From assembly GCA_030159075.1 (NCBI GenBank), contig BROG01000465.1, positions 1 to 64,000 on the forward strand: a DNA stretch of 64,000 nucleotides. The letters are read 5' to 3'. Source of the stretch: Atrina japonica. Lineage: Eukaryota > Mollusca > Bivalvia > Pterioida > Pinnidae. A model generated the notes under the pieces. It saw only the letters and a list, made by a program, of their open reading frames with translations, was not told where the DNA came from and ran no database searches. Position 1 is the first letter of the stretch; every line of letters begins with the position of its first letter. The translations under genes and the position numbers were made by a program. This document shows positions 8,184-61,246 of the stretch, piece after piece.

Positions 8184-8568
8184 CTTTACTCACTGACAAA
8201 TTATTGACACAGGGATATCGAAAACCGCGTTTAATGTCAACGTTCCGCAAATTTTATGGTCGGTATAATAGTCTTGTTTGCGACTACTCTGTTTCACTAA
8301 GTGAAATGTTGAGTTGCCTTTTCGTTGGCGGTTGTTGAGACGTCTGTACCAATTGTGACGAGGATACACTCCTCACGTGTTTCATTGGACTTGACTGTGG
8401 ACTCACGGCGGGTGTGACCGGTCGACAGGGGATGCTTACTCCTCCTTGGCACCTGATCCCACCTCTTGGTTTCCAGAGGTCCGTGTTTGTCCATTTTTAC
8501 CGGATTTGTATCTATGTCCTGGACATCCTATTGATTTATACTTTGGTATCTGAAATTTTTATAATTTA
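8184..8568 (+). mobile_element. PLE family A, 5'-truncated 3' end
   Basis: This begins at the RT C-terminus (TDK..TQGY-like, FRKFYGRYNSLV, SVSLSEML), ends the RT frame after LFVGGC, and carries the whole 3' block to the terminus TTTGGTATCTGAAATTTTTAT. It is among the least diverged tails in the window. A - strand hammerhead relic begins within a few bases of its 3' end. Confidence 0.8.
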
Positions 8569-8569
8569 A

Positions 8570-8682
8570 ATCTTATGAACATAATACCAAAGATATAGCT
8601 TTTCAAAATGGTCAAAACAAGTGATAGATCAAGACGATCGTTTCTGTCAATAAGACTTCATCAGATGAACTCGAATCAATTG
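8570..8682 (-). mobile_element. Hammerhead retrozyme relic
   Basis: The - strand contains CTGATGA, a GTC...GAC helix II, GAA, a stem III ACGATCGT and the cleavage-site C, in hammerhead order. It is followed by the retrozyme motif TTTGGTATTATGTTCAT. The stem I strands match only in part. It abuts the 3' end of a PLE copy. Confidence 0.6.
8627..8670 (-). ncRNA. Hammerhead ribozyme, stem I degraded
   Basis: The catalytic core (CTGATGA, GAA, U then C at the cleavage site) is present on the - strand. The helix I strands GTTCAT and TTGATC have two mismatches, so self-cleavage is doubtful. Confidence 0.55.
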
Positions 8683-10165: not shown

Positions 10166-11393
10166 TTAAACCTATTTTTTCTCTAGTTAAACCTTGTTTT
10201 CCTTTAGTTAATCCTAGCTTTTCCTATGGTTAAACCTAGTTTTTCTCTAGTTTTACAAAGGCAAAATCTAGTTTTTCTCTAGTTATACCTAGTGTTTTTC
10301 TAGTAAAACCTAGTTTCTCTAGTTAATCTAGTCTTTTCTAGTTAAACCTAGTTTCTCTAGTTTACCTAGTCTTTATAAGTTAAACCTAGTTTTTCTCTAG
10401 ATAAACCTAGTGTTTTTCTGGTTAAACCTCGTGTTTATCTAGTTAAACTTACTGTTTCTCTAGTTAAATTTAGTGTTTCTCTAGTTAATTTTAGTTTTTC
10501 TCTAGTTACAACTAGTGTCCCTCTAGTTAAAAAAGTGCATCTCTCTAGTTAAACCTACTGTTTCTCTTGTTAAACTAATTTTCTCTAGTTAAACCTTGTT
10601 TTTCTCTAGTTAAATCTAGTGTTTCTATAGTTAAAACTAGTGTTTCTTTAGTTAAAGCTCGATTTTTCTAGTAAAACCTAGAGTCTCTAGTTAAACATTC
10701 TCTAGTTAACCTAGTTTTTTCTAGTTAAACCTAGTTTTTCTCTAGTTAAACCCAGTGTTTCTTTGGTTAAACCTCGTGTTTATCTAGCTAAACCTACTGT
10801 TTCTCTAGTAAAAGCTATTGTATCTCTGGTCAAAACTAGTGTTTCCATAGTTGAACCTAGATTTTTCTAGTGAGACCTAGTGTTTGTCTGTTTAAACCTT
10901 GTTTTTTTCTTATATAACCTAGGGTTTATTTATTCAAACCTAGTTTTTCTCTAGTTAAAACTAATTTTTCCCTAGTTAAATAGTTTTATGTAGCTTAACC
11001 TAGTGTGTCTCTACTTAAACCTAGTGTTTCCCGAGTTAAATCTACTGTTTATCTACTTAAATCTAGTTTATTTTGTCGGATATTACTTACTCTTCAGGAA
11101 ATCTATTTAAAATTTTAGCTCAACTGATGAATTCTAATTGACAGAATCTATCGTCTTGAGTATTATAACTTTCGTATTATGTTTGTAATATTTAAACCTA
11201 GGTTTTCTCTAGTTAATTCTAGTCTGTCCCAAGTTAAACAGCGTTTCTCTAGTTATACATAGTTAAACCTGTTCATCTAGTTAAACCTAGCGTGTCTCGT
11301 GTTAAACCCAGTTTTTCTCTAGTTAAACTTAGTGTTTCTCTAGTTAAGACTGGTGTTTCTGTAGTTACACCTAATTATTCTCTGGTTTTTCTC
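10166..11393. repeat. 22-bp satellite, CTAGTTAAACCTAG type, with hammerhead relic
   Basis: About 50 degenerate copies of a ~22-bp unit built on CCTAGTTTTTCTCTAGTTAAA. Short inverted flanks TACGACAAAATA (10151-10162) and TATTTTGTCGGATA (about 11069-11082) bracket the main block. Within the array, 11085-11200 is a hammerhead retrozyme relic, after which the 22-bp units resume. Similar CTAG units border another hammerhead array at 33330-33445. Confidence 0.85.
11118..11161 (+). ncRNA. Hammerhead ribozyme relic inside satellite
   Basis: GCTCAA and TTGAGT form helix I, with one G.U end pair. CTGATGA and GAA are intact, but helix II has lost its GTC strand (ATTC instead) and stem III begins with U. 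It is probably inactive. Confidence 0.6.
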
Positions 11394-22314: not shown

Positions 22315-23215
22315 ACACTGGACCCTCGCCTTAGGACGACCTCGCTTAGGAGATCACATCACAATTAAGACCATGAATTTCCACTCTCTTCATTATTATT
22401 GAATCAGTACAAAACATCACGTAAGAGACCACCTCACTAATCAGACCACTCTGGATCGGCCAGTTAGGTGTTCTGACTGCGAGGTTGTAATGTAACATTC
22501 TCACTAATCAGACCCCTTTCAATCAACCAGTTAGGTGGTCCTAATAACGAGACTCCACCGTAACATTTTACTAATCAGACCACTTTTAGTCAGTCACTTA
22601 GGTGGTCTTAATAGCAAGTTTCCACCGTAACACCTCACTAAATATATCACTCTGTTTAGTCAGTAAGGTGGGCTTAATAGCAAGGTTCCACTGTAACACC
22701 TCACTAATCAGACCACTTTGAGTAAGTCAGTCAATCAGTCAGGTGCTCTTAGATGAGATGTCTTATTGTAACACCTCACTAATCAGACCACTTTGAGTAA
22801 GTCAGTCAATCAGTCAGGTGCTCTTAGATGAGATGTTTTATTGTAACACCTCACTTATCAGACCACTTTGAGTAAGTCAGTCAATCAGTCAGGTGCTCTT
22901 AGATGTGATGTTTTATTGTAACACACACTTATCAGACCACTTTGAGTAAGTCAGTCAATCAGTCAGGTGCTCTTAGATGTGATGTTTTATTGTAACACCT
23001 CACTTATCAGACCACTTTGAGTAAGTCAGTCAATCACTCAGATCAGTCAGGTGCTCTTAGATGTGATGTTTTATTGTAACACCTCACTAATCAGACCACT
23101 TTGAGTAAGTCAGTCAATCAGTCAGGTGCTCTTAGATGAGATGTTTTATTGTAACACCTCACTTATCAGACCACTTTCAGTCAGTTATGTGGGCTTAATA
23201 GTGAGGTTCCACTGT
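22315..23215. repeat. 75-bp tandem array
   Basis: The unit contains CCTCACTAATCAGACCACTT, AGTAAGTCAGTCAATCAGTC and GTGCTCTTAGATGAGATGTT. Near-identical units start at 22699, 22774, 22849, about 22923, 22998, 23082 and 23157 (period 75, one unit 84). The portion before 22699 holds older, shorter versions. A stray fragment of the older unit sits at 29214-29262. Confidence 0.9.
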
Positions 23216-30080: not shown

Positions 30081-30465
30081 CATTTACAACTTTGGTATTA
30101 TGGTTATAATATTTAATACCACTAGATCGTTGCCACTGCTGGTGGACCGTTTGAGTCCCCAAGGATATACATAAACCTAGTACCTGGTATTTCGGTACCA
30201 GCTGTTCATCTTATACTAAAGTAATATTTGGCACTTTAAACACCGTTTAAATTCGGGAAAAAATTTAAAGCTAAGATAGTCATTTTTTTACAGTGGGTAC
30301 TCTTAGACGGATTTCGGCTTTACTTTTAGAGATATTATTTGGTCTTGTATAATACCACTTTCTCTTTAGAAAATACACACGGATTTCGGCTATACTTTTA
30401 GAGATATTATTTGGCCTTGTATAATACCACTTTCTTTAGAAAATACACATACTTTTTAAATTGGA

Positions 30466-30511
30466 GCTCAACTGATGAAGTCTAACTGACAGAAACGAAA
30501 TCGTCATGAGC
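30466..30511 (+). ncRNA. Hammerhead ribozyme, near-intact
   Basis: The core CTGATGA and GAA are intact, with helix II GTC/GAC. Helix I GCTCAA/ATGAGC has a mismatch next to the cleavage site and stem III is imperfect (ACG AAAT CGT). Confidence 0.7.
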
Positions 30512-30749
30512 ATTATAACTTTGGTATTATGTTTATAATATTTATAACCACTAGGTCGTTGCCACTGACTGCTGGTGGACCGTTTAAGTCCTCAAGAGTA
30601 TACATCAACCTAGTACCTTGTATTTCGGTACCAGCTATTCATCTTATACCAATGATTACTCTTAGACGGATTTCGGCTATACACCTTTTTTCTTGGCCTT
30701 GTATGATACCACTTTATCTTTAGAAAATACACATACTTTTCAAATTGGA

Positions 30750-30795
30750 GCTCAACTAATAAAGTCTTATTGACAGAAACGATATCGTCTTGAGC
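30750..30795 (+). ncRNA. Hammerhead ribozyme, core mutated
   Basis: Helices I and III are perfect but the core reads CTAATAA instead of CTGATGA. The invariant G residues are lost, so it is predicted inactive. Confidence 0.65.
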
Positions 30796-31138
30796 ATTAT
30801 AACTTTGTTATTATGTTTATGATATTTATAACCACTAGGTCGTTGCTACTGCTGGTGGAGCATTGGAGTCCCTGAGGGTATACATAAACCTAGTACCTGG
30901 TATTTCGGTACCAACTGTTCATCTTATACTAAAGTAATATTTGGCACTATTTAAATTCGAAAACATTTTAAATCTAAGATAGTCATTTTTTTACAGTTTG
31001 TACTCTTAGACGGATTTCGGCTATTCATCTTATACTAATGATTACTCTTAGACGGATTTCGGCTATACTTTTAGAGATATTATTTGGCCTTGTATAACAC
31101 CACTTTATCTTTAGAAAATACACGATTTTGAAATTGGA

Positions 31139-31184
31139 GCTCAACTGATGAAGTCGAATTGACAGAAACGATATCGTCTTGAGC
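31139..31184 (+). ncRNA. Hammerhead ribozyme type I, intact
   Basis: Helix I is GCTCAA with TTGAGC (6 bp). The core is CTGATGA (31145-31151) and GAA (31165-31167). Helix II has GTC/GAC with a GAATT loop and an A.A apposition next to the core. Stem III is ACG/CGT with an ATAT loop. The predicted cleavage is after C31178. The very short stem III is typical of hammerheads thought to work as dimers. Confidence 0.85.
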
Positions 31185-31538
31185 ATTATAACTTTGGTAT
31201 TATGTTTATAATATTTATAACCACTAGGTCGTTGCCAGTGCTGGTGGACCATTGGAGTCCCTGAGGGTATACATAAACCTAGTACCTGGTATTTCGGTAC
31301 CAACTGTTCATCTTATACTAAAGTAATATTTGGCACTGTTAACACTATTTAAATTCGAAAACATTTTAAATCTAAGATAGTCATTTTTTTACAGTTTGTA
31401 CTCTTAGACGGATTTCGGCTATTCATCTTATACTAATGATTACTCTTAGACGGATTTCGGCTATACTTTTAGAGATATTATTTGGCCTTGTATAACACCA
31501 CTTTATCTTTAGAAAATACACATATTTTTGAAATTGGA

Positions 31539-31584
31539 GCTCAACTGATGAAGTCGAATTGACAGAAACGATATCGTCTTGAGC
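31539..31584 (+). ncRNA. Hammerhead ribozyme type I, intact
   Basis: Identical in all core and helix positions to the copy 400 bp upstream. Predicted cleavage is after C31578, so the pair would release the 400-nt monomer 31179-31578. Confidence 0.85.
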
Positions 31585-31878
31585 ATTATAACTTTGGTAT
31601 TATGTTTATAATATTTATAACCACTAGGTCGTTGCCAGTGCTGGTGGACCGTTTGTATCCCCGAGGGTATACATAAACCTAGTACCTGGTATTTCGGTAC
31701 CAGCTGTTCATCTTATACTAAGGTAATATTTGGCACTGTTAACACCATTTAAATTCGAAAATTGTTTTAAACCTCATTTTTACTCTTAGACGGATTTCGG
31801 CTATACTTTTAGAGATTTTATTTGGCCTTGTATGGTACCATTTTATCTTTAGAAAATACATATACTTTTCAAATTGGA

Positions 31879-31924
31879 GGTCAACTGATAAAGTCTTATT
31901 GACAAAAACGATATCGTCTTGAGG
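31879..31924 (+). ncRNA. Hammerhead ribozyme, degraded
   Basis: The core is CTGATAA, the GAA is changed to AAA, and helix I has lost two outer pairs. It is the last unit of the array. Confidence 0.6.
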
Positions 31925-32152
31925 ATTATAATATAAAAATTTCAGATATATGGGTGTATCTACCCTACTAAAATAACCTATCTGCACTAGTTTTTGCCAT
32001 GTATAGTCCAATCCACGTTCTGTGACAGTTGATGTAAACTTTTGATCATTATAAGAATGATTGAGTTTTAGCGGATATGATAGGCTTCAATAAAAAAAAT
32101 ACTGCTTACTGGATACTCGAACGTACAGTGAATATTATAAACATAATACCAT

Positions 32153-33330
32153 AGTTCATTTGATATACCTACAACGGATCCCGATTTCGACTTACCACAT
32201 TTATACTGGATACCTAAACTTCATAAAACCCAATATAAGCAAAGATACATAGCAGGATCCAGCAAATGTTCTACCAAGCCTTTATCTTTACTCACCAAGA
32301 TATTGACAGCCGCTAAGGAGAAACTTCAACAATACTGTACAGTTGCTTATTCCAGAAGCGGTGTAAATCAATGTGATACTTTAAAAATTCTAAACAGCTT
32401 GTAGAAAATTTGAAGGCACACAAATTTTTCTCGAATTCACAGTATCAAAACTTATGACTTCTCTACTCTTTACACTACTATTCCACATAAAAAATTAAAA
32501 GAAAGACTTTTCAGCATCAAAGCAACTGCTTTTATCACTAAAGGAGGATCCGAAAAAATATCTAGTGATTGGCTACAGGATACTTAGGTCAAACACCACT
32601 CTGATTCTACACATAAATATACTGAAGGATATAAAAAAACATGCTGTAATTTCTAATTAGACCTATATCACAATGTTCGGAGACGTGGTCTTTCAACAAA
32701 CTGTCGGGATTCCTTTGGGAACCAATTGTGCAACTTTATTGGCCGACCTGTTCCTTTATTCATACGAAGCAGACTTCATTCAGAAACTGCTGAATCAAAA
32801 GAAGAAAAAGTTAGCGTGTCCTTTAAATTTGACATTTAGATATATCGACGACGTTTTGACAATTAATAATGACAATTTTCATACGTATGATGCGATATAT
32901 CCCAGCGAACTAGAAATTAAAGATATTGAATCAAGCACACACGCTTCATACTTAGACATTTTACTTCATATAAACACAGACGGGAAATTAGCAGCTATGC
33001 TATGATAAACGCGACGATTTTCGGCCCATCGTACATTTTCCACATTTAAGTATTATATCCCTCAGTCACCGGATATGGATTTATATTTCACAAATGATCC
33101 GATATGCAGGGCGTGCAGAACATATAAAGATTTCATATACAGACTTAAACTACTCACTGAACAAATTATTGACACAGGGATATCGAAAACCGCGTTTAAT
33201 GTCAACGTTCGCGTTTATGGTCGGTATAATAGTCTTGTTTGCGACTACTCTGTTTCACTAAGTGAAATGTTGAGTTGCCTTTTCGTTGGCGGTTGTTGAG
33301 ACGTCTGTACCAGTTGTGACGAGGGTATAA
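32153..33330 (+). mobile_element. PLE family A copy, frame-broken
   Basis: Starts in the conserved N-terminal RT block (LHKTQYKQRYIAGSSKCSTK-like) and continues through motif A (YDFSTLYTTIPH), motif B, the YIDD motif and the FYGRY-like C-terminus, but stops soon after the RT end (about 33330) where a CTAG-type tandem repeat begins. Several 1-2 nt indels break the frame. It lies between a + strand hammerhead array ending at 31935 and a - strand array starting at 33458. A short - strand hammerhead-unit fragment (32131-32152) abuts its left edge. Confidence 0.8.
32673..33005 (+). pseudogene. PLE reverse transcriptase core fragment
   Basis: 110-residue open segment with motif B (GIPLGTNCATLLADLFLYSY; P and M replaced by T and L against other copies) and the catalytic RYIDDVLTIN motif. 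It ends at a TGA caused by a small deletion relative to 42827-43471. Nuclear copying enzyme for a retroelement. This copy cannot make full RT. Confidence 0.8.
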
Positions 33331-33450: not shown

Positions 33451-33487
33451 AATTTGACTATTATAAAAATACTACCAAAGTTATAAT

Positions 33488-33533
33488 GCTCAAGACGATA
33501 CCGTTTCTGTCAATTAGGCTTCATCAGTTGAGC
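33488..33533 (-). ncRNA. Hammerhead ribozyme, core intact
   Basis: Helix I is GCTCAA/TTGAGC, CTGATGA and GAA are intact, and the cleavage C is present. Helix II carries one mismatch (GCC against GAC) and stem III is ACGGTATCGT. Confidence 0.7.
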
Positions 33534-33820
33534 TCCAATTTAAAAGTTATGTGTAAAGAGAGAGTGGTATTATATTAATATCTAAAAGTATAGCCGAAAT
33601 CCGTCGTAACCACTGTAAAAATGACTATCTTAGATTTAGAAAAAAATTGGAATTTAAATGATGTTACACAGTGCCAAATATTACTTTAGTATCTTGTACA
33701 GCTGGTACCAAAATACCAGGTACTAGGTTTATGTTTACCCTCGGGGACTCAAATGGTCCACCAGCATTGGCAACAACCTAGTGGTTATAAATATTATAAA
33801 CATACTACCAAAGTTATAAT

Positions 33821-33866
33821 GCTCAAAACAATACCGTTTCTGTCAATTCGACTTCATCAGGTGAGC
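33821..33866 (-). ncRNA. Hammerhead ribozyme, variant
   Basis: The core CTGATGA and GAA are intact and the cleavage-site base is U, which is still allowed. Helix I has one mismatch (GCTCAC). Confidence 0.65.
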
Positions 33867-34084
33867 TCCAATTTAAAAATTATGTGTATTTTCTAAAGAG
33901 AAAGTGGTATTATACAAATCGAAATAATATCTCTAAAAGGTTCTAAGAGTAACCACTGTAAAAATGACTATCTTAGATTTAGATAAAAAATTGAATTTAA
34001 ATGATGTTAACAGTGCCAAATATTACTTTAGTATAAGATGAACAGCTGGTACCAAAATACCAGGATAATCACTTGTATGATATT

Positions 34085-37142: not shown

Positions 37143-37337
37143 AAACATTTGCTAGTGCTTAGAATATCGCGCTTTAAACCATAATGTCTCTCATATCAGG
37201 TCAACGCCGACTGAAGGCAAAAATCTAAGATGATTTCTTGAGAAACATTTCCAGTTAATTTGCGGAAGGTGGGTGGTCTCTTCCCGGGTAAATTACAACC
37301 AGATCCCCCCAATAAAAAAGACCGTCACCATATAGCT
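37143..37337 (+). mobile_element. tRNA-derived SINE, second family, 3'-truncated
   Basis: Same body as 2225-2475 (CGCGCTTTAAACCATAATG, GTGGTCTCTTCCCGGGTAA, CACCATATAG). It stops abruptly where a - strand hammerhead unit begins, so one element interrupts or joins the other. Confidence 0.6.
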
Positions 37338-37365
37338 ATTATAAACATAATACCAAAGTTATAAT

Positions 37366-37411
37366 GCTCAAGACGATATCGTTTCTGTCAATTAGACTTC
37401 ATCAGTTGAGC
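37366..37411 (-). ncRNA. Hammerhead ribozyme type I, intact
   Basis: On the - strand helix I GCTCAA/TTGAGC, core CTGATGA and GAA, helix II GTC/GAC with a TAATT loop, stem III ACGATATCGT, and the cleavage C are all present. Confidence 0.85.
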
Positions 37412-37721
37412 TCCAATTTGAAAGTATGTGTATTATCTAAATATAAAGTGGTATTATACAAGGCCAAATAATATCTCTAAAAGTATAGCCGAAATCCGTC
37501 TAAGAGTAACCACTGAAAAAAATGATTATCTTAGCTTTAGAAAATTTTCGAATTTAAATGGTGTTAACAGTGCCAAAAATTACTATAGTATAAGATGAAC
37601 AGCTGGTACCGAAATACCAGGTACTAGGTTTATTTATACCCTCGGGGACTCAAACGGTTCACCAACAGTGGCAACGACCTAATAGTTACAAATATTATAA
37701 ACATAATGCAAAAGTTATAAT

Positions 37722-37767
37722 GCTCAATACGATATCGTTTCTGTCAATTAGACTTCAATAGTTGAGC
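37722..37767 (-). ncRNA. Hammerhead ribozyme, core mutated
   Basis: Helices are conserved but the core reads CTATTGA and the cleavage-site base is A. Predicted inactive. Confidence 0.6.
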
Positions 37768-38279
37768 TCCAATTTGAACAGTGCCAAAAATTACTTTAGT
37801 ATAACTGAATAATTTTGGTCGGGACGTAAACACCAATAATACTAACAACACTTTTAAAATATTTAAATATTTCTATGGTATACATTTAACATAATTAATC
37901 TATAACTTGCTCATTTCTCTTGAAACATTTTTACTATCGCTAAAAACGGGCACACATTAAAATATCTATATTTTTTCTTCGGTAGTAAAACTGATTTATT
38001 TAATAAACTTGGCAGTATCTGGAAATATTAACAATGACGGAAAATGAAGCAATTAAATTGATAACTGTGTATTTGGAAATTGTGTCGAAATATATATTGT
38101 TTATTTATCACACACAACGCAACAGCATCATGCAGCATAAGACAATCCGAACCTCTGCCTGTAACAATTATTTGATAAGAGATATCAGGTATACACTAGT
38201 ACCATACTGTTCACTATTAAATCAACAGACCATGCGCTGCTCTCATATGCTGACTACAATACTTTTTCGAGGTGGAGAA

Positions 38280-40570: not shown

Positions 40571-40716
40571 TATGACACTAGTATCTGTATACTTTGTATT
40601 TCTGATTAATTTAATACTAAAGAAATATTTGGAATAGACAGCATGGTTTCAATTTAATCCTCCTCAAATGCTAAAACAGTTATCTTTTTACATTGGTTAC
40701 TTTTAGAGTGATTTGG

Positions 40717-40982
40717 ATCCGGCCTGGCTCAGTTGGTAGCGCATTTGTCTCTTGATCGTGAGTTCAAGTCCAGCCGGCGGCAGGTGAAATTCCTGTCGTT
40801 CGGATGAGACAGTAAAAACGGAGTCCCCGTGTGTCACTCGTTCAAGAACCCTCACTGCTCAATGGCCGTAAGTTCCGACCATAGGCCAAAATTTGAAGCC
40901 CTTCACCGGCATTTGGTGACGTCTCCATATGAGTGAAAGATTCTTGAGTGGAAAGTTAAACAACAATAAACAACAAAACAAC
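40717..40982 (+). mobile_element. tRNA-derived SINE, full length (MetaSINE-like)
   Basis: The tRNA-derived head has an A box TGGCTCAGTTGG and B box GAGTTCAAGTCC. It is followed by the body blocks CGGATGAGACAGTAAAAACG, CCATAGGCCAAAATTTGAAG and a tail TTCTTGAGTGGAAAGTTAAA ending in CAACAATAAACAAC. Imperfect target duplications TTAGAGTGATTTGG (40703-40716) and TTAGATTGACTTAGG (40983-40997) flank it. It is transcribed by RNA polymerase III in principle and depends on a LINE in trans. Confidence 0.85.
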
Positions 40983-41544: not shown

Positions 41545-41862
41545 TTTCACAGGGATATCGAAAATTTCTCAAATTTCATGGTCTTAATAATAGTCTTGTT
41601 TGCAATTACTCTGTTTCAGTAAGTGAAATGTTGAGTTACCTGTTCGATGGCGGTTGTTAAGACGTATGTACCAAATGTGACGGGGATTCGTTCTTTATAT
41701 ATTTCATTTTGATTTAACTATGGACTCACGCCGGATGTGACCTGTCGACAGGGTATGCTTACTCCTCCATGGCACCTGATCCCACCTCTTAATTCCCAAA
41801 GACCCGTTGTTTATCTATTTTTACCAGATTTGTACCTATATCCTGAACATCCTATAAACTAG
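41545..41862 (+). mobile_element. PLE family A 3' end
   Basis: Covers the last RT codons (with a deletion around MSTFRKFYGRY) and the 3' block to CCTGAACATCCTATAAAC. It lacks the final ~30 bp of the element. Confidence 0.7.
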
Positions 41863-42185: not shown

Positions 42186-43703
42186 TATTTTTATTAGAAG
42201 AACTTGGGTTTAATACGAATTCTGGAAATCCTACATACACACGTAGCTCACTTTCAAAGGACGAGATCCTTCAAAATCACGTGTCCGTATTACGCTCATT
42301 TGATATACCTACAACGGATACCGATTTCGAGCTACCACATTTATATTGCATATCTCAACTTCATAAAACCCCATATAAGCAAAGATACATAGCAGGATCC
42401 AGCAAATGTTCTACCAAGCCTTTATCTTTACACCTTACCAAGATATTGACAGCCGTTAAGGAGAAAATTCAACAATACTGTACAGTTGCTTATTCCAGAA
42501 GCGGTGTAAATCAGATGTGGATACTTAAAAATTCTAAACAGTTTTTTAGAAAATTTGAAGGCACACAATTTTTGTCGAATTCACAGTATCAAAACTTATG
42601 ACTTCTCTACTCTTTACACTACTATTCCACATAAAAAATTAAAAGAAAGACTTTCAGCATCATAGACAACTGTTTTTTCACTAAAGGTGGTACCCGAAAA
42701 TTTAAATATCTAGTGATTGGCTATCAGGATACTTATTTCGTCAAACACCACTCTGATTCTACACATAAATATACTGAAGTTGATATAAAAAACATGCTGT
42801 AATTTCTAATAGACAATATATTTGTAATGTTCGGAGACGTGGTCTTTCAACAAACTGTCGGGATTCCTATGGGAACCAATTGTGCTCCTTTATTGGTCGA
42901 CCTGTTCCTTTATTCATACAAAGCAGACTTCATTCAGAAACTGCTGAATCAAAGGAAGAAAAAGTTAGCGGTGTCCTTTAATTTGACATTTAGATATATC
43001 GACGACGTTTTCTCAATTAATAATGACAATTTTCATACATATGTCAATGCGATATATCCCAGCGAACTAGAAATTAAAGATACAACAGAATCAAGCACAT
43101 ACAATTCATACTTAGACATTTTACTTAATATAAACACAGACGGGAAATTAGCAACTAAGCTATACGACAAACGCAACGATTTCGGCTTTCCCATCGTAAA
43201 TTTTCCACATTTAAGTAGCAATATCCCTCAGTCATCCGCATGTGTAGTTTATATTTCACAAATGATCCGATATGCCAGGGCGTGTACAGCATATGAAGAT
43301 TTCATATACAGAGGTAAACTACTCACTGACAAGTTATTGACACAGGGATATCGAAAACCACGTTTAATGTCAACGTTCCGCAAATTTTACGGTCGGTATA
43401 ATAGTCTTGTTTGCGACTACTCTGTTTCACTAAGTGAAATGTTGAGTTGCCTTTTCGTTGGTGGTTGTTGAGACGTCTGTACCAATTGTGACGAGGATAC
43501 ACTCCTCACGTATTTCATTGGACTTGACTGTGGACTCAAGGCGGGTGTAACCGGTCGACAGGGGATGCTTACTCCTCCATGGTACCCGATCCCACCTCTT
43601 GGTTTCCAGAGGTCCGTGTTTGTCCATTTTTACCGGATTTGTATTCATGTCCTGGACATTCTATTGATTTATACTTTGGTATCTGAAATTTTATATATAT
43701 AAA
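42186..43703 (+). mobile_element. PLE family A, longest copy
   Basis: A 1.5 kb copy. It begins at LLEELGFNTNSGNPTYT, then has the LHKTPYKQRYIAGSSKCSTK block (RT motifs 1-2 region), motif A with catalytic Asp at codon 42600-42602 (one frameshift just before it), motif B, YIDDV, the FYGRY C-terminus, the RT stop at 43469-43471 and the complete 3' block. There is no GIY-YIG domain after the RT. The upstream part is truncated. Its 3' end meets another copy tail-to-tail at about 43702. Confidence 0.85.
42827..43471 (+). pseudogene. PLE reverse transcriptase, C-terminal 214 residues
   Basis: The longest open RT segment in the window. It has GIPMGTNCAP at residues 12-21 (motif B), RYIDDV at 56-61 with the catalytic Asp pair 59-60, IYPSELEIKDTTE, a SYLDILLNINTDGKL block (motif D/E and start of the thumb), and the thumb-like LLTQGYRKPRLMSTFRKFYG. 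The ORF ends at LFVGGC. Upstream motif A is in another frame and a stop separates the parts (CTGTAATTT where CTGGAATTT is seen at 59607), so no full enzyme is encoded. The GIPMGTNCAP/YIDDV combination is typical of Penelope-type RTs that I recall from invertebrate genomes. Confidence 0.85.
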
Positions 43704-45025: not shown

Positions 45026-45238
45026 TCAATGACGAGGATACACTCCTCGCGTATTTCATTGGACTTGACTGTGGACTCATGGCGGGTGTGACCGGTCGAC
45101 AGGGGATGCTTACTCCTCCATGGCACCTGATCCCACCTCTTGGTTTCCAGAGGTCCGTGTTTGTCCATTTTTACCGGATTTGTATCTATGTACTGGACAT
45201 TTTATTGACTAATACTTTGGTATCTGAGATTTTTATAT
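45026..45238 (+). mobile_element. PLE family A 3' block, followed by (TA)n
   Basis: Only the post-RT block, in very good condition, from TGACGAGGATACACTCCTCG to ACTTTGGTATCTGAGATTTT. It has no RT codons. It is followed within 20 bp by a long TA tract. Confidence 0.8.
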
Positions 45239-45244
45239 CGTATC

Positions 45245-46507: not shown

Positions 46508-46922
46508 ATATAAAAATCTTAGATACCAAAGTATAAATCAATAGAATGATATAGATACAAATCCGGTAAAAATGGACAAACACGGAACTCTGGAAACAAA
46601 GAGATGGGATCAGGTACCATGGAGGAGTAAGCATCCCCTGTCTACCGATCACACCCACCGTGAGTCCACAGTCAAGTCCAATGAAATACTTGAGGAGTGA
46701 ATCCTCGTCACAATTGGTACATACGTCTCAACAACCGCCAACGAAAAGGCAACTCAACATTTCACTTAGTGAAACAGAGTAATAGCAAACAAGGCTATTA
46801 TACCGAAGGTAAAATTTGCGGAACGTTGACATTAAATGCGGATTTTGATATCCCTGTGTCCATAATTTGTCAGTGAGTAGTTTACCTCTTCATATGTTGT
46901 ACACGCCATGGCATATCGGATA
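46508..46922 (-). mobile_element. PLE family A 3' end
   Basis: A complete tail on the - strand: terminus, 3' block, RT C-terminus and back to the IRYA.ACTAYEDF-like codons near 46890-46922. Moderately diverged. Confidence 0.75.
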
Positions 46923-51572: not shown

Positions 51573-51896
51573 CTGATTTTAAACATCGTAATTTAAGTAG
51601 TAATATCCCACAGTCACCCGCATATGGAGTTTAAATTTCATAAATGATCCGATATGCCAGGGAGTGTTCAACATATGAACATTTCATATACAGATGTAAA
51701 CTACTCACTGACATATTATCGACACAGGAATAACGAAAACTGGCGGGTTTGACCGGTCGACAGGGGATGCTTACTCCTCCATGGCACCTGATCTCACCTC
51801 TTGGTTTCCAGAGGTCCGTGTTTGTCCATTTTACCTGATTTGAATCTATATCCTGGACATCCTAATATTTATACTTTGGTATTTGCGATATTTTTC
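51573..51896 (+). mobile_element. PLE family A 3' end with internal deletion
   Basis: Begins further upstream than most tails, at codons around NFPHLSSNIPQSPA, reaches ATCGACACAGGAATAACGAA, and then jumps at about 51740 straight into the 3' block (GGCGGGTTTGACCGGTCGAC). About 260 bp including the FYGRY codons and RT stop are deleted. Confidence 0.75.
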
Positions 51897-51964
51897 ATAT
51901 TTACTGTCCAATCATGCATACAAAAATTGAAAGTTATCTGATCATAGGTTCATGAGAAGAGATT

Positions 51965-58474: not shown

Positions 58475-58835
58475 GTCCTTCAAAATTACGCTTTTTTGAT
58501 GTACCTATAACCGATATTGATTTTGAGCTACCTTATTTATGTTGGATACCTCAACTTCATAAAACCCCATATAAGCAGAGGTAAATAGCAGGATCCAGCA
58601 AATGTTCTACCAAACCTTTATCTTTACTCCTTACCAAGATATTGACAGCCATTAAGGAGAAACTTCAGCGATGCTGTACAATTGCTTATTCCAAAAGCGG
58701 TGTAAATCAGATGTGGATACTTAAGAACTCTAAACAACTTTTAGAAAATTTGAAGGCACACAATTTGTCAAACACCACTCTGATTCTAGACATAAATTCA
58801 CTGAAGTTAATATAAAAACATGATGGAATTTCTTA
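58475..58835 (+). mobile_element. PLE family A, RT N-terminal fragment
   Basis: Covers the LHKTPYKQR block (with a stop at the following codon), the GSSKCSTKPLSLLLTKILTA-like block and then, after a deletion, VKHHSDSRHKFTEVNIKT. It stops where the next copy begins with upstream codons. Confidence 0.7.
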
Positions 58836-59998
58836 TACGATGGTTGATAAAATCTCGTATTCGAAAACTTAAAGGGACTATGAAAACACGTCATCCCTCT
58901 GTATTTAATGATCCAGAAGTAGTAACTGAACTGGATAGATTACATGACCAATACTGTAGCTGGTACCAGCAGACAAAGCCTCAAATAATATAGTTTTTAT
59001 TTGTAAGGCACGATTACTATAATTGTTTATTAGAAGAACTTGGGTTTAATACGAATTCTGGAAATCCTACATACACAGGTACCTCACTTTCAAAGGACGA
59101 GATCCTTCAAAATCACGTGTCCGTATTACGCTCATTTGATATACCTACAACGGAGACCGATTTCGAGCTACCATATTTATACTGGATACCTCAACTTCAT
59201 AAAACCCCATATAAGCAAAGATACATAGCAGGATCTAGCAAATGTTCTACCAAACCTTTATCTTTACTCTCCTTACCAAGATATTGACAGGCGTTAAGGA
59301 GAAAATTCAACAATACTGTACAGTTGCTTTTTCCAAAAGTGGTGTAAATCAGACATGGATTCATAAAAATTCTAAACAGCTTTTAGAAAATTTGAAGGCA
59401 CACAATTTTTCTCAAATTCACAGTATTAAACTTATGACTTCTCTACTCTTACACTTCTATTCCACATAAAAAAATTAAAGAAAGACTTTTCAGCATCATA
59501 GACAAGTGTTTTTTCACTAAAGGTGGTACCCGAAAATTTAAATATCTAGTGATTGGCTATCAGGATACTTATTTCGTCAAACACACTTGATATAAAAAAC
59601 ATGCTGGAATTTCTAATAGACAATATATTTGTAATGTTCGGGGACGTGGTCTTTCAACAAACTGTCGGCATTTCTATGGGAACCAATTGTGCTCCTTTAT
59701 TGGCCTACCTGTTTCTTTATTCATACGAAGCAGACTTCATTCAGAAATTGCCGAATCAAAAGAAGAAAAAGTTAGTGGTGTCCTTTAATTTGACATTTAG
59801 ATATATCGACGATGTTTTGTCAATTAATAATGACAATTTTCATACATATGTCAAACACACAAGCGTGTGTACTCCATGGCACCTGATCCCACCTCTTGGT
59901 TTCTAGAGGTCCGTGTTTGTCCATTTTTACCGGATTTGTATCTATGTCCTGGACATTCCATTGATTTACACTTTGGTATCTGAATTTTATTTATATAT
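58836..59998 (+). mobile_element. PLE family A copy with the most upstream sequence
   Basis: Starts with codons RIRKLKGTMKTRHPSVFNDP and ELDRLHDQY, absent elsewhere in the window, then a frameshifted form of the VLVPADKASNNIVF-type motif common in Penelope RTs, then GFNTNSGNPTYT through YIDDVLSIN. At about 59855 an internal deletion joins HTYV codons directly to the 3' block (CCATGGCACCTGATCCCACC), and the copy ends at the normal terminus. Together with the previous and next fragments it forms a head-to-tail chain. Confidence 0.8.
59553..59906 (+). pseudogene. PLE reverse transcriptase fragment fused to 3' block
   Basis: Open segment of 117 residues. Motif B is changed to GISMGTNCAP (Pro to Ser), RYIDDV is intact, and after NDNFHTYV the frame runs into the translated 3' block because of an internal deletion. 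It is non-functional. Confidence 0.75.
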
Positions 59999-60990
59999 TA
60001 TAGACAATATATTTGTAATGTTCGGAGACGTAATATTTTAACAAAGTGTCGGCATTCATCTGGGAACCAATCGTGCCCCTTTATTGGCCGACCTGTTCCT
60101 TTATTCATACGAAGCAGACTTTATTCAGAAACCCCTGAATCAAAAGAAGAAAAACGTGGCGGTGTCCTGTAATTTGACATTTAGATATATCGACGACGTT
60201 TTGTGAATTAATAATGACAAGTTAGTATAGATGGTCAGCGTTCAAAGTCCATCGACAGTGGATTGGTAAGAAAACCAAGGGCTCCATGGGAATCGCCTGC
60301 ATTTTCTTACAATTCCGGAACACCAAGGAAAAATCCAGATGATATATATTCCGAAGGGACAAATCAGCACAAAGGAAAACTAAAGCTAGCTCAGTAGGAC
60401 AACAAGGGGCACCATGGGGAAGCCTCAGAAATAGAGAAAAAAAGTGGAATGACACCCCAAGAAAAATAATGATGACCTATTTAGAAGAGATAGTTATTTT
60501 AAGGATCGGGGCAATAACCGGATATAGCAAACTCAGTCAAATCCTCCATGGGAAACCCCAGTAAATGGAGGATGTTCCAATGACTTTGATGTTATGTTTG
60601 GAAAACCTGCATATCATGGGGAAATGCATATGAATGGAATAAGAAAAAGTAATTCCGTTGATAACGGCTACAGGATTAGCTGGGAAACCCTGCCACCAAA
60701 GAACAAGACTAAAGCCGAGGAATATCATAAAATGCTGCACAATGATTACCTTCATCCTCGAGGACAAGGGTACTGATGTCCTCTATATAGAGGTGTATGC
60801 ATTTCATACATATGTCAATGCGATATATCCCAGCGAAATAGAAATTAAAGATACAACAGAATCAAGCACATACGCTTCATACTTAGACATTTTACTTAAT
60901 ATAAACACAGACGGGAAGTTAGCAACTAAGCTATACGACAAACGCGACGATTTCGGCTTTCCAATCGTAAATTTTCCACAATTAAGAGTA
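59999..60990 (+). mobile_element. PLE family A copy interrupted by a 580-bp segment
   Basis: 59999-60220 covers motif B to YIDDV and NNDN codons with two stops. The element resumes at 60802 exactly where expected (HTYVNAIYPSEIEIKDTTES) and runs to the FPQL codons near 60988, where it stops. The intervening 60221-60800 is unrelated to the PLE. Confidence 0.8.
60221..60800 (+). pseudogene. Coding-like insert of unknown origin, frame-broken
   Basis: Across three + strand frames this segment reads as one hydrophilic protein piece, with recurring Pro-Trp motifs: RAPWESPAF, GAPWGSLRN and NPPWETPVN, later GYRISWETLPPKNKTKAEEY. Frame changes occur near 60390 and 60465 and a stop near 60530. Its base composition is richer in G and C than the surroundings. 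It could be a captured host exon, a retrocopy piece or part of another element's ORF. I do not recognise the protein. Confidence 0.5.
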
Positions 60991-61246
60991 ATTCTATGTA
61001 AAGGCCAAAGAATTATTTAAGTGCTGAGAAATGGTATGTCACAGAATACGCTCATATTTACTATATCTGTTTATTATAGAATACTTAAACATAATATTGA
61101 TTTTAAAATTGAAAAAAATATATATTGTTGTCATGGCAACAAAGAGTTGTTTGTTACAAGATTTGTCCTCTTACCCATATAGAAAAAGGCATTTTTGCGT
61201 AGTTTCAACATTTTATTTTTATTTAACATACAAGATATATCAATAA

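Follow-up and report, generated by a model that had tools for sequence, protein, structure and literature searches.

We analysed a window of 64,000 nucleotides from the bivalve Atrina japonica (positions 1 to 64,000 of the forward strand of contig BROG01000465.1, assembly GCA_030159075.1). A tandem array carrying five copies of a hammerhead-like motif occupies positions 30084-31931 of the + strand, as delimited by blastn of its unit on the window, a TRF period of 400 and direct repeats. The array comprises partial, truncated and full units, three of which span the whole unit (389, 400 and 340 nt), and by blastn on the window its units share 80-100% identity with the unit at 31139-31538. Its GC content is 33%, and no ORF of more than 115 codons overlaps it.

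Two of the five motifs, at 31139-31184 and 31539-31584, consist of the same 46 letters and lie exactly 400 nt apart. Each contains GCTCAA/TTGAGC, CTGATGA, GAA and the palindromic stem III sequence ACGATATCGT, with predicted cleavage 3' of C31178 and C31578, respectively, which would delimit a 400-nt monomer at 31179-31578. The letters, the spacing and the identical relative positions given in the initial annotation were thus confirmed letter for letter. In both motifs, stem II has only 3 bp, and positions 10.1/11.1, where its closing pair would be expected, carry A and A. The remaining + strand motifs are an intact core with one helix I mismatch at 30466-30511 (core match at 30472), a degenerate copy with a broken core (CTAATAA) at 30750-30795 (core match at 30756), and a last copy at 31879-31924 (core match at 31885), also with a broken core (CTGATAA, GACAAAAAC). 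Directly 3' of the first 46-nt motif, the segment at 31185-31219 holds a hairpin, TATTATGTTTATAATA, and a tail motif, CTTTGGTAT, and is where other copies mostly terminate. Two related segments of ~42 nt also lie in tandem within the unit at 31376-31459 (starts at 31376 and 31418; repeat family D8, spacing 42).

The core pattern CTGATGA-A-GTC-N5-GAC-A-GAAACG, searched with up to three mismatches, occurs 14 times in the window, whereas it was absent from all of 100 dinucleotide shuffles. On the minus strand, a second array of the unit lies at 33459-34064, with one motif that equals the core pattern (33835) and one with a single change (33502), and a further copy at 37331-37804 again has two motifs (37380, equal to the core pattern, and 37736, with two changes). 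Shorter pieces of the unit were found near 8.6, 11.1, 41.1, 46.0 and 53.5 kb. The motif fragment at 11118-11203 is embedded in a 21-bp minisatellite (10166-11373). Other repeats in the window include a satellite-like array with periods of 75 and 233 bp and 91-93% matches (22692-23185) and, by eye, a tRNA-like SINE head at about 40700-40900 (GGCCTGGCTCAGTTGGTAGCGC...GTTCAAGTCC), where ARAGORN reported no tRNA gene.

Because the units of the window array differ from one another by 8.5% on average and two of the five + strand cores are broken, the array is an old, decaying copy that is probably dead or weakly active. Its unit length is also atypical: the unit reaches 400 nt because of an internal duplication, a second, related copy of an internal stretch that adds 42 nt absent from the usual unit. 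To place the locus in its genomic context, we searched the genome (832 Mb in 2347 contigs). The core signature CTGATGAARTYNNNNNGACAGAAAC has 8046 exact matches (3935 + 4111), and the reversed control has none. The search with the whole unit yielded 157 matches from the best 40 scored of 3158 candidates, so that its counts are lower bounds, and the array and divergence data given below refer to these best-scoring matches. Among the matches listed, full units at many loci measure mostly ~350-365 nt (typically ~358), with longer ones in C52 (389 nt) and C792 (379 nt). The 400-nt spacing reported earlier therefore holds for the window, but not as the typical length of the family. Tandem arrangement with an exact core is found at a minority of the sites sampled: an exact neighbour one unit away (344-364 nt) was present at 16 of the 98 core sites listed for contigs C1 and C2, the other 82 being solo or having mutated neighbours. 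A second, solo motif family keeps the core and the tail behind a different spacer (four copies in the sequence examined).

We then considered whether the motif is a hammerhead ribozyme. The Rfam hammerhead models gave no match at the gathering threshold in the window, none at E<=5 in the 2.7 kb between 29500 and 32200, and none at E<=10 in the 121 nt between 31110 and 31230. A genome-wide search with RF00008 also returned nothing; since no control genome gave a match either, this last result is uninformative. Covariance scores below threshold are one of three observations that the initial annotation had named as together refuting its reading, and that is what was found. Together with the A10.1/A11.1 mismatch, the 3-bp stem II and an alternative fold that is favoured in prediction (see below), this makes the original description of the ribozymes as intact too strong. 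The mismatch is present in nearly all of 85 listed copies, retrieved with a search pattern in which 10.1 and 11.1 are themselves set to A and four changes are tolerated; judging from these copies, it is probably the state of the family rather than a product of decay at the window locus. In an alignment of 44 young units, divergence was 1.2% in the motif, 1.7% at the core positions and 2.1% elsewhere in the unit. Conservation of the motif is hardly higher than that of the remaining sequence, which gives no clear indication that selection acts on it.

Folding predictions raise the question of whether the conserved element might simply be a long hairpin in which GAUGA pairs with UCGUC, the hammerhead letters being coincidental. 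In the minimum-energy fold the core indeed pairs with the cleavage strand, both in two variants of the motif and in the string of the second family, and in a 522-nt context the pairs of this alternative hairpin have probabilities of 0.93-0.96. The hammerhead fold is predicted to make up only 3e-6 of the structures of the window motif and 5e-4 of those of the commonest variant, in models that treat secondary structure alone and ignore both the tertiary contacts of hammerheads and dimers. A purely coincidental resemblance would nevertheless have to account for core letters and a cleavable C in the right order and spacing, a combination that did not arise in any of the 100 window shuffles; divergence within the family is too low for covariation to test either pairing. 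We regard this explanation as the least probable of those considered here. With its core letters, an open helix I and a C at the predicted cleavage site, the motif resembles a type I hammerhead, and we take its putative cleavage to be likely but conditional. Excerpts of PMC7229834 describe weak type I motifs, among them one whose stem II has U.U at its base, that are more active as dimers, and for the hammerhead of an Anolis Penelope-like element (PLE), excerpts of PMC11167929 report cleavage only with protein, the ribozyme being dispensable for insertion in vitro.

Of 24 arrays outside the window, nearly all have their 3' junction after the hairpin TATTATGTTTATAATA, the exceptions being L024, which stops earlier, and L003, whose last unit is altered. 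Among the matches listed, 38 short end pieces, including that of the window, start at unit position 1-3 and measure less than 100 nt; by hand count, 31 of them end between unit positions 76 and 82. The end piece of C99 is no true end, as the array runs on in L036. The fixed 3' end lies 36-42 nt downstream of the point at which cleavage is predicted. The 5' ends, on the other hand, are spread round the unit (for example at 41, 48, 55, 86, 158, 173, 316, 339 and 343), and that of L026 is exactly the first base after the predicted cleavage site. We found no target-site duplication, with a mean longest common flank string of 5.8 compared with 5.6 in mismatched pairs. In their fixed 3' end and variable 5' ends, the copies at these loci resemble products of retrotransposition.

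Comparison of the units themselves showed that divergence within arrays is 1.1% (29 pairs from nine non-window arrays), compared with 2.75% between arrays (751 pairs), and none of 2000 label permutations gave a within-array value as low. Two of the nine arrays, C52 (7.1%) and C20 (2.9%), depart from this pattern and are not clonal. In C84, the number of differences among the eight full units stays at 5.5-7.7 positions across all lags, a star-like pattern in which only 6 of 22 variable columns are common to at least two units. Three further arrays are less regular. The five units of C73 show 2.7-4.0 differences, and the five of C382 show 7.0-8.5, rising to 11.0 at the longest lag, with no clear trimer period in the latter array. 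The older C99, with 17 units, shows about 20-23 differences between units a short lag apart, 25-27 once the lag reaches 12-15, and 4.0 in its outermost pair. On balance, these patterns are more easily reconciled with repeated copying round a single template, or with copying of a uniform multimer, than with duplication step by step.

These observations bear on the possibility that the family is a satellite or dispersed repeat carrying a dead hammerhead relic, whose arrays grow by unequal crossing-over, the ribozyme being irrelevant. Such an origin would agree with A.A at the closing pair throughout almost the whole set of listed copies (with the proviso on the search pattern given above), with the Rfam-negative motif, with the high pair probabilities of the alternative hairpin, and with the lack of an exact tandem neighbour at most sampled sites. 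It is at odds with the fixed 3' and variable 5' ends seen at many loci, with the star-like units of C84 and their lack of a distance effect, and with the retention of core and tail, despite another spacer, in the four copies of the solo family. We therefore consider a satellite origin unlikely, while giving it more weight than the coincidental hairpin.

Downstream of the array, the + strand carries, at 32147-33327, part of a Penelope-like reverse transcriptase (RT) element, truncated at its 5' end and frameshifted, which was recognized by RT homology and by the structure model of a relative. It begins 216 nt after the array, in sense orientation, and the inverted units follow it. The element is very abundant: a first look at the genome gave 24,799 candidates (best 150 scored). 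Pfam RVT_1 matches it weakly, and sequence searches against solved structures gave nothing usable. A structure model of a 377-aa relative (pLDDT 71.9) had telomerase as its 11 best PDB matches, with modest TM-scores by query of 0.37-0.44. Two loci of this genome with ORFs of 782 and 760 aa are 98% alike over 2.55 kb; neither ORF contains a GIY-YIG domain and, by length, ~220 N-terminal residues of the ~1000-aa relatives are missing from them. GIY-YIG lies at residues 117-226 in all six homologues scanned, which had been picked for that label, and the label is carried by 12 of 120 listed RT relatives. Two of the 120 are from the pearl oyster Pinctada imbricata. Two relatives, P0350 and P0352, combine a ubiquitin carboxyl-terminal hydrolase domain (PF00443) with GIY-YIG, and the scan of P0350 also shows RT. 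Taking these data together, the neighbouring element is best called Penelope-like.

Further truncated RT copies lie in the window at 812-1188, 41570-41855, 42190-43698, 45030-45240, 46508-46921, 51591-51902 and 58485-60992. Elsewhere in the genome, RT protein matches were found near 5 of 24 arrays, and pieces of the RT 3' region, some of them weak, near five more (L010, L015, L024, L025 and L030). Since the 64-kb window alone has 14 RT 3' ends and RT pieces occur all over it, nearness of arrays and RT copies says little, and we rejected it as evidence. Two RT copies abut tail to tail, almost without a gap, at 43693 (+) and 43701 (-), and an RT 3' tail (8187-8570, +) abuts a solo hammerhead-like motif of the second family (8639-8664, -). 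Tail-to-tail junctions of RT and motif were noted by eye at window positions 8570, 31940 and 43698 and, with a unit array, at position 7700 of L031. An enrichment of such junctions was also rejected, as a strict scan returned 1 compared with 1.4 expected.

The position of the RT fragment is relevant to another explanation, namely that the units are pseudo-LTRs of the adjacent Penelope-like element and that the motifs are the minimal hammerheads of an autonomous PLE end. Minimal type I hammerheads do occur in PLE pseudo-LTRs, according to excerpts of PMC6155905 and PMC7761336, and in the window an RT fragment lies in sense 216 nt after the array, with inverted units behind it. Reverse transcription in the Anolis PLE likewise starts 3' of the hammerhead cut, the cut lying 26 nt and the start 111-118 nt into the ORF (excerpts of PMC11167929). 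The RT copies outside the window speak against it. In 28 of 29 of them (L040-L068), the element ends in its own tail, ...TATACTTTGGTATCTGAGATTTTTATAT or a close variant, and is followed by other sequence; a hammerhead-like motif lies within ~1.5 kb on either side of only 2 of the 29, and none was found in the two 7-kb loci with the longest ORFs among those listed. The separate tails and the motif-free 7-kb loci rule out the unit as a pseudo-LTR at the 3' side of the PLE. As a whole, we rate the pseudo-LTR explanation as improbable, below a satellite origin and about on a level with, or slightly above, a hairpin with chance hammerhead letters.

A different connection between the two elements emerged from their 3' tails. 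The RT element ends in ...TTATA-CTTTGGTAT followed by 15 nt, and the arrays in ...TTATAACTTTGGTAT followed by about 14-17 nt. TTATA(A)CTTTGGTAT is thus common to the two tails, and in both its CTTTGGTAT part begins some 23-26 nt from the terminus. The local score of the shared tail was reached by 88 of 20000 dinucleotide shuffles, before requiring equal distance from the end. In the window, 110 of 25586 35-mers reach this score, at 22 places that include the RT and unit ends and also a few others. Among motif copies outside the downstream pattern of the unit, the tail motif is kept in 6 of 13, compared with none upstream and one for the reversed motif. These statistics are modest, and the comparison was chosen after the fact. 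LINE/SINE pairs offer a precedent for partner elements with shared tails, and by analogy with them the tails suggest that the RT element moves the retrozyme arrays. Because both 3' tails share TTATA(A)CTTTGGTAT, the abundant RT element is the best candidate for the mobilizing enzyme, although the lead is a modest one.

Taken together, we think it likely that the array in the window, old and decaying, derives from a non-autonomous retrotransposon without LTRs that belongs with the animal retrozymes. The retrozyme reading of the initial annotation can be kept for the family, for which it is the best one because of the tandem non-coding units of ~358 nt, the type I-like motif, the fixed 3' and variable 5' ends and the mostly higher identity within arrays; its two complete, active ribozymes are not supported, and the release and circularization of a 400-nt RNA stay predictions. 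According to this retrozyme model, tandem units would be transcribed, and the type I hammerhead-like motif, probably as a dimer through the palindromic stem III or with the help of a protein, would cut the RNA into unit-length pieces, which may then be joined into circles. Reverse transcriptase would begin on the small hairpin, which lies 36-42 nt downstream of the cleavage site, and would copy a circle, or possibly a multimer, several times, leaving a fixed 3' end, a variable 5' end and near-identical units. The enzyme would probably be Penelope-like, with the element of the 32147-33327 fragment as the best candidate. A more specific version, which we put forward tentatively and hold to be possible rather than likely, is that a PLE with GIY-YIG and a telomerase-like RT is the autonomous partner, that the retrozyme mimics its 3' tail, and that the enzyme starts on the hairpin and copies the circle repeatedly; the motif would then be an A10.1/A11.1 variant hammerhead, and the alternative hairpin would keep circles uncut.

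Excerpts of PMC7229834 call PLEs a 'strong candidate' for moving animal retrozymes, and excerpts of PMC7761336 name them as likely candidates; in the titles and abstract openings surveyed, nothing settles which enzyme does so. The present family has thousands of copies, its ends are precise, some of its arrays are young and clonal, and the same genome contains a very abundant PLE with a similar tail, which makes the question of the mobilizing enzyme directly testable. The window locus is an ordinary old copy, and what most deserves to be followed is the shared tail.

Animal retrozymes are described in excerpts of PMC7229834 as tandem units of 150-450 bp with type I motifs, low GC and no LTR. 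The present unit is tandem and within ~150-450 bp, low in GC and without an ORF, and the family probably belongs to this known kind. By description, it most resembles the retrozymes of Mytilus galloprovincialis (~350-390 bp; excerpts of PMC7229834), with which it shares low-GC tandem units, length class, thousands of copies and a type I hammerhead-like motif without most of the usual loop-contact nucleotides. Some Mytilus galloprovincialis circles are likewise exceptions to the motif being free to fold. The window family differs from these retrozymes, as far as the same excerpts describe them, in the A10.1/A11.1 mismatch and in having a candidate autonomous partner. The minimal hammerheads of PLEs (Cervera and de la Pena 2014; Lunse 2017; as described in papers that cite them) are similar in being minimal type I motifs, thought to be dimeric, and dispersed or tandem, whereas the units of the window family stand alone and the neighbouring PLE-type element is without the unit at its 3' end. 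Finally, the HHR_Amex2 retrozymes of axolotl (excerpts of PMC7229834) also have a non-Watson-Crick pair at the base of stem II (U.U there, A.A here) and, like the window family, a short stem III with a four-base loop; HHR_Amex2 is more efficient as a dimer, and the window family is set apart from it by a 3-bp stem II, another host and another unit sequence.
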